DNA of 39,041 nucleotides from Arcobacter sp. 31_11_sub10_T18 (GTDB lineage Bacteria > Campylobacterota > Campylobacteria > Campylobacterales > Arcobacteraceae): positions 1-39,041 of the forward strand of contig MAAG01000047.1 in NCBI GenBank assembly GCA_002163065.1, in the 5' to 3' direction. Positions 25,729-34,359 of this stretch are shown here, one piece after another; positions within the stretch are counted from its first letter, which is position 1; the number at the start of each line of letters is the position of its first letter. A program made the translations under genes and the position numbers. The notes beneath the pieces were generated by a model. The model searched no databases, had not been told where the DNA came from, and was given only the letters and a program-made list of their open reading frames with translations.

Positions 25729-27634
<1,906 letters not shown>

Positions 27635-27668
27635 TATAGTGTCCTTATTAAGTTTAAAATCATTGTTA

Positions 27669-27844
27669 TACCAAATTAGACCAAAAGTGATGACTTAAAC
27701 TGTACTACCCTGTGGGAAAATACCTAAAAGGCATCTTGAAAAAGAAAACAATTAAAATTAGCTACGGCTAGTTTGAATTGTTTTCTTTCCCAATCTGATC
27801 TTTTATCTATTTTTTTAAGTGGTCACTTTTGATTTAATTTGGTA
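27669..27844. repeat. MITE-like nested inverted repeat in the groES leader
   Basis: 31-nt terminal inverted repeats (TACCAAATTAGACCAAAAGTGATGACTTAAA vs RC TACCAAATTAAATCAAAAGTGACCACTTAAA, 27/31 identical), flanked by TTA on both sides; internal 22-nt inverted repeat 27741-27762 / 27767-27788. Confidence 0.7.
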
Positions 27845-27871
27845 TTAGCACTCATTAAAAATGAGTGCTAG
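27845..27871. promoter_or_regulatory. CIRCE element (HrcA operator)
   Basis: TTAGCACTC-N9-GAGTGCTAG. Confidence 0.97.
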
Positions 27872-27872
27872 A

Positions 27873-27901
27873 ATTGTATAAAAATTTGACTTAGTTGTCA
27901 A
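27873..27901 (-). promoter_or_regulatory. groESL sigma70-type promoter
   Basis: Minus strand TTGACA-N17-TACAAT, immediately upstream of CIRCE. Confidence 0.85.
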
Positions 27902-34215: not shown

Positions 34216-34359
34216 AAAAGTGTAAGGTTACAGTTAGTTTTTGTATAGTTCAAGGCGAAGATGAAGTTTTATGAAGGAGCTTACAATAAGTAAGTGAGTT
34301 TATAAAACTTCATCTTCAACGCAGAAATCTGCAAAAAATAGCTGTAAATTTACACTTTT
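34216..34359. repeat. Copy 2 of dispersed palindromic element, with extended outer arms
   Basis: Core GTTCAAGGCGAAGATGAAGTTTTATGAAGGAGCTTAC-aata-AGTAAGTGAGTTTATAAAACTTCATCTTCAACGC; outer arms AAAAGTGTAAGGTTACAG / CTGTAAATTTACACTTTT reach into the ubiE 3' end. Confidence 0.8.

Follow-up and report, generated by a model that had tools for sequence, protein, structure and literature searches.

The 176-bp block between CIRCE, the HrcA operator, and groES in Arcobacter sp. 31_11_sub10_T18 is an insertion with a 3-bp TTA duplication. Most probably it is a non-autonomous, MITE-like element, with an outer stem that is moved by a transposase and arms that act as single-stranded hairpins. This copy is a truncated derivative of a longer element, and the internal fold of its family is conserved far past the terminal repeats; both points go beyond the preliminary description of this locus. 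The family is apparently widespread and undescribed. All coordinates refer to the window, i.e. the complete stretch of 39,041 nucleotides (contig MAAG01000047.1) that was analysed.

The block occupies positions 27669-27844 on the minus strand, which is the sense strand of groES. Its 31-nt terminal inverted repeats, 27669-27699 on the plus strand and 27814-27844 on the minus strand, are identical at 27 of 31 positions and form the two sides of the outer stem; a wider reading, 27668-27699 with 27814-27845, gives 28 matches out of 32. An inner inverted repeat pairs 27736-27762 with 27767-27793 around a loop of 4 nt. TTA flanks the block on both sides, at 27666-27668 and 27845-27847, and the right-hand TTA is at the same time the first three bases of CIRCE (TTAGCACTC-N9-GAGTGCTAG, 27845-27871). 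The preliminary description had reported the block, its ends, the internal hairpin and the TTA flanks, and all of these are confirmed. The inverted repeat is not a product of chance: over 32 positions it reaches 28 matches, and the best such repeats with a span of at most 260 in five Markov sequences of the window's length have 22-24. The list of open reading frames holds none of 80 or more amino acids inside the block.

The left terminal repeat is followed by an 8-nt remnant of a lost arm (27700-27707), recognised by comparison with a full copy from the same genome, and then a mini-hairpin, CCCTGTGGG (27708-27716), at what is the centre of symmetry in the family. The rest, 27717-27813, is a 97-nt hairpin arm of the alpha type, with its presumed functional form on the groES sense strand and its tip, ACTAGCCGTAGCTAAT, at 27757-27772 (minus strand). 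By comparison with other copies, a tandem G-A internal loop is located in this arm, with its 3' side (CAAGATG on the minus strand) at 27732-27738 and its 5' side (CAGATTG) at 27791-27797.

Pfam confirms groES (Cpn10, PF00166; 27377-27634, minus strand) and a polyprenyl synthetase gene upstream; groEL (25729-27375, minus strand) is an open reading frame identified by inspection. The block lies between CIRCE and the groES start at 27634. A sigma-70-like promoter, TTGACA-17-TACAAT (27873-27901, minus strand, a consensus match only), is found directly upstream of CIRCE, and because of this position the block is placed in the predicted transcribed leader. The leader folds with -78.3 kcal/mol, compared with -36.3 ± 4.2 for 200 shuffled sequences (z = -10). 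The predicted order is the CIRCE hairpin, the block and then a free ribosome-binding site, AAGGA (27642-27646, minus strand), that is unpaired in the predicted fold. Transcription from this promoter would thus give the groESL leader about 179 nt of additional, strongly folded RNA, and promoter, operator and ribosome-binding site would all stay intact. For the operator this had been proposed before, and CIRCE is indeed complete, both by its sequence and by comparison with the leaders of relatives. The event is a natural experiment, in which a structured insert entered a chaperonin leader and the repressor site was spared.

In 14 other genomes of the same bacterial family, the gap between CIRCE and the groES ATG is 21-45 nt and the block is absent. 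When the flanks in the window are joined without the block (GAGTGCTAA|CAATGATTTTAAACTT...ATG), 31 nt remain, and this rejoined leader resembles that of L048 (GAGTGCTAACAGTAAATTTAAACTT). Empty sites are therefore present, and of the two readings offered in the preliminary description, a non-autonomous element or a long structured 5'UTR conserved at groES, the former is borne out and the latter is contradicted by these leaders. The source genome (74.5% complete) also contains further copies, for which the preliminary description had suggested a search. A full-length copy of 264 bp, on contig C42, has a Sir2-like deacylase ORF on one side and a nitroreductase-like ORF on the other (named by inspection) and is 86% identical to the window copy across 152 aligned bp. 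In addition, there are about ten end-only palindromes of 37-56 bp with little beyond the two ends, while the reversed end pattern, used as a control, gives zero matches in this genome. These palindromes, on contigs C13, C19, C47, C59, C81, C116 and C157 and several of them with TTA/TAA duplications, may be what internal deletion leaves in the end, or else minimal elements that are themselves mobile. Among the 17 copies of the window's end type that were judged genuine in the source genome and near relatives, ten are flanked by an exact duplication of 3 bp, which is TTA or TAA in every case, and seven are not; the same scan gave five chance palindromes, none of which has an exact 3-bp duplication.

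The complete plan of the element is seen in four full copies of 263-267 bp (C42, G059:C122, G035:C199 and G054), with arms of 95-99 nt. It consists of an outer stem of 31 nt per side, an arm of about 98 nt, a 9-nt CCCnnnGGG mini-hairpin and a second arm of about 98 nt, in total about 265 bp. This four-way plan is present in 84 of 90 collected full-length elements and in none of 270 shuffled versions. The arms of the collected elements are 98.4 ± 3.3 and 98.0 ± 4.3 nt long, and 75 of the 84 full elements have an exact CCCnnnGGG. The total length was measured as 270 ± 6 bp, in which the duplication is counted in part wherever it chances to prolong the stem; without it the length is about 265 bp. 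Of this plan, the window copy retains the outer stem, the mini-hairpin and one arm, and the other arm is reduced to eight bases. Comparison with C42 suggests that the second arm was lost after the insertion, by a deletion between two TTTA repeats.

To follow the family, we used three covariance models. R1, containing the arm and the mini-hairpin, was built from four copies and matches 11 of 104 genomes of the host's bacterial family, in six genera. Many of these matches bear wholly different ends (GGGCACCTCTAAAAA and others). R2 was built from 15 matches and finds the family in 102 of 399 Campylobacterales genomes, in 32 of 88 genera; nearly 300 genomes have no match, which favours its specificity. 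A scan of GTDB species genomes for the exact arm tip, GGACTAGCCNTAGCTAATTC, returned at least 120 stretches, where we estimate that a handful would be expected by chance. Among the matches listed, most are from Sulfurovum, Sulfurimonas, Sulfurospirillum, Nitratifractor and unnamed Campylobacterota, and others are from gammaproteobacterial genomes, including Candidatus Thiodiazotropha, and from a Saprospiraceae bin. One match to the tip pattern, L274, was dropped as it looks like a chance match within a coding region.

R3 is based on six matches from Gammaproteobacteria, with a G+C content of 63-66%. In each of ten selected genomes it gives 10-30 matches, some of them one arm counted on both strands, and it finds the family in 42 of 274 sampled Gammaproteobacteria genomes. 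R2 finds the window copy with an E-value of 9e-24, and R3, which was made from GC-rich gammaproteobacterial copies only, finds this AT-rich copy with an E-value of 4e-9. The latter is an independent check that both ends of the range belong to one family. About a quarter of the Campylobacterales genomes and about a sixth of the Gammaproteobacteria genomes sampled contain matching copies, often several to tens of them, and the models would permit its immediate annotation. Outside Campylobacterales the hosts are mostly metagenome bins. Saprospiraceae MAG-38 (G464; L283, L298, L304), a Bacteroidota bin, has ten model matches over many contigs; these may be binning errors, and if they are not, the family reaches a third phylum. 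Among plasmids and phages there is a single match, an unannotated family copy at 95718-95920 of NZ_CP087125.1, a 395-kb replicon of Sulfurovum mangrovi, and a search with gammaproteobacterial copies gave none; the exact tip pattern has no match in IMG/VR viral contigs.

The plan is constant over at least ten end sequences and over duplications of 3, 4 or 5 bp. Overall identity between end types is 0.51-0.61 and hence nearly random, as the value for shuffled pairs is 0.51 and reaches at most 0.57. TACC ends go with a 3-bp duplication. For GGGCACC ends it is 4 bp, in 11 of 25 cases compared with 11% in permuted flanks, and in a second count in 14 of 38 with 4.5 expected. Three gammaproteobacterial TACTC ends also have a 4-bp duplication. 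ACCTGAG ends show a 5-bp duplication in 11 of 16 cases (1.0 expected); these cases agree just as well with ends that are one base longer and a duplication of 3 bp. As duplication length tracks end type, different transposases were probably at work. Of the 87 judgeable elements, 72 are intergenic. The flanking genes of 67 scorable elements are divergent in 21 cases, co-directional in 36 and convergent in 10, so the elements are not restricted to gene ends.

The two arms are alike once the second is reverse-complemented. Each has a tip, GGACTA...TAATTC, followed by one of two loops: the alpha arm has the tandem G-A loop, TAAGATT / AAAGATTG, and the beta arm has a CAAGGC / CAACG loop. Since the arms mirror each other, the two halves on either side of the mini-hairpin are almost symmetric, and the first arm encountered on each strand is one in its proper form. 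In the alignment of the family 30 of 39 pairs have changed on both sides, 95% of the cells pair, and none of 500 shuffles comes near; this alignment was fitted to the structure and is therefore biased in favour of covariation.

A separate count of mismatches was made on 65 non-redundant elements folded with G-U pairing forbidden, using isolated mismatches only; it replaces an earlier count of 33:2 from a structure-fitted alignment. In the outer stem there are 27 G·T and 29 A·C mismatches, i.e. no strand bias. The first arm, read on its own strand, has 72 G·T and 10 A·C (p = 1e-12), and for the second arm, counted on the opposite strand, the numbers are 66 and 21 (p = 1e-6); these p-values are optimistic because the elements are related. 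When recurrent positions are left out, ratios of 26:3 and 33:9 remain. RNA tolerates G·T pairs, ssDNA does so to a lesser degree, and A·C pairs are tolerated in neither. The observed bias suggests that the arms act as single-stranded hairpins, either as RNA or as ssDNA. Template-switch correction of palindromes in duplex DNA could account for co-variation in stems, but would not be expected to give a strand bias or to let internal loops persist; it is a possible explanation for the outer stem.

From these observations we propose the following mechanism. The element would have jumped between CIRCE and groES with the TTA duplication. The outer stem would represent the ends of a transposon, on which DDE transposases that differ in specificity would act in trans, cutting and joining them and leaving duplications of 3, 4 or 5 bp. 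We consider DDE cutting at the outer stem most likely; the length of this stem is nearly constant, 31 bp. On the strand that reaches it first, each arm would be preserved as a single-stranded hairpin, and an element in either orientation would thereby offer one properly formed arm ahead of the other. The hairpins might act in read-through transcripts entering from either side, or in ssDNA, and they may aid tolerance by the host, for instance by shaping read-through RNA, or recruit a protein that helps movement. A transposase with matching ends, suggested earlier as something to look for, was found neither in the source genome nor in the collected loci, where no ORF lies between matching ends; around such ends in G036 there are ordinary genes. 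An autonomous parent with the same ends was likewise not found in the sequences examined, which cover the transposases of the genomes in part.

An ordinary MITE would be the deletion derivative of one insertion sequence, with an unimportant interior and with pairing kept by template-switch correction and not by selection. Terminal repeats, duplications, small size, many copies and intergenic location all agree with this, as does the outer stem, where correction predicts the observed lack of strand bias (27:29). We nevertheless consider it unlikely, as the same interior plan occurs in elements with differing ends and duplication lengths, and as correction would erase the conserved internal loops and tips and the mismatches in the arms are strand-biased. 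Movement as ssDNA through the hairpins, by a HUH transposase (IS200/IS605, REP) or by attC-like recombination, would explain why a strand-specific hairpin comes first on each strand and why unpaired features are conserved at fixed places. However, terminal inverted repeats and 3-5 bp duplications indicate a staggered double-strand cut by a DDE enzyme, no HUH enzyme or integrase was linked to the elements, and no attC boxes were noticed by eye, which makes this explanation rather improbable.

A conserved structured 5'UTR that regulates groESL, e.g. a thermosensor, is highly improbable. The strong predicted fold of the leader agrees with it, as does a family member with a CIRCE-like repeat on one side and an Hsp20-like ORF on the other, but the leaders of the 14 relatives lack the block and other copies lie at unrelated genes. 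That family member, at 1392-1740 of L165 (G008:C18), is from another genus and is complete; the repeat, TTAGCACTT-N9-AAGTGCTAA, is accompanied by a promoter, and the Hsp20-like ORF was identified by inspection. The element has a TTCA duplication and its alpha arm is in sense, as in the window. As it is one among about 90 collected elements, its placement at a heat-shock gene may be coincidence. Later co-option of the window copy in the groES leader is possible.

The MITE-like element that we favour is of a known kind, as its mobility rests on terminal repeats and a duplication, and it is for this reason that we file the family with MITE-like elements. Bacterial MITEs (Correia/NEMIS, ERIC, RUP and similar) are families united by their ends and by a shared parent transposon. 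Like them, the family is short, non-coding and foldable, with terminal inverted repeats, short target duplications of fixed length per end type, many intergenic copies and empty sites. Unlike in MITEs, where the ends unite the family and the interior has no fixed design, here the ends and the duplication length vary, and what stays the same is the four-way fold, including the length of its arms. Unity of ends is the usual property of MITEs and lies outside the strict definition, therefore we use the label MITE-like. MITE families are held together in the opposite way, by their ends and not by a fold, and a fold that is more tightly constrained than sequence or ends runs counter to what is expected from MITEs. 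This leads to a question that can be tested, namely what recognises the hairpins and whether the benefit is to the spread of the element or to its tolerance by the host. Tentatively, and with less confidence than in the element itself, we suggest a mobile class defined by shape, found in Campylobacterota, Gammaproteobacteria and perhaps Bacteroidota. It would be a chassis of about 265 bp, built as a four-way junction and independent of orientation, in which the fold is inherited, one functional single-stranded hairpin (RNA or ssDNA) comes first on either strand, and the interchangeable ends change to suit different transposases.

REP/BIME and IS200/IS605-type hairpins move as ssDNA and have neither terminal inverted repeats nor target duplications. 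They share with the family strand-specific hairpins with conserved irregularities and many intergenic copies, and differ from it in that the family has both repeats and duplications. In integron attC sites structure is conserved above sequence and the folded single strand is recognised. The family is similar in that structure outweighs sequence in conservation, but it has terminal inverted repeats and duplications, and neither cassette arrays nor attC boxes were noticed by eye. A cis-regulatory leader RNA would be conserved at orthologous groES loci, and this is not the case. Mitochondria also have double-hairpin elements and palindromic repeats (e.g. PMC5910586, PMC4478555). Such elements are mobile and keep their structure while the stem sequence changes. 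The family resembles them in its mobility and in a fold that outlasts the stem sequence. The mitochondrial elements are much shorter, organellar and without the 31-bp outer stem, the CCCnnnGGG hairpin and defined duplications. The MITEs of Thiomargarita are described either as Correia-like with TATA ends or as carrying 10-bp direct repeats (PMC4853749); compared by description, these ends and repeats do not support that they are the same family. Searches with the Rfam 15 covariance models at permissive thresholds gave nothing credible, and no paper with the tip or end sequences, or with a fitting description, was found in the open-access literature.

Two other kinds of repeat were observed. 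At 34216-34359 the window contains a second nested-hairpin family, with an outer inverted repeat of 36 nt and an inner one of 28 nt. It has a relative at 898-987 and about 13 further places in the genome, with 71-78% identity, and its outer stems seem to vary between copies. On visual inspection its arm (GTTCAAGGCG...CAACGCAG) is similar to the beta arm of the main family. As a relative of the main family it was left uncounted, because both R2 and R3 miss it. Tandem repeats of about 45 bp (AAAACTAGCCGTGGCGATTTTTGCTTTAGCAAAAAAGTTTCTGTG) lie near or inside family elements, in L150 downstream of 1660, in L149 and in L230 (G036, G047), and the start of the repeat resembles the arm tip.
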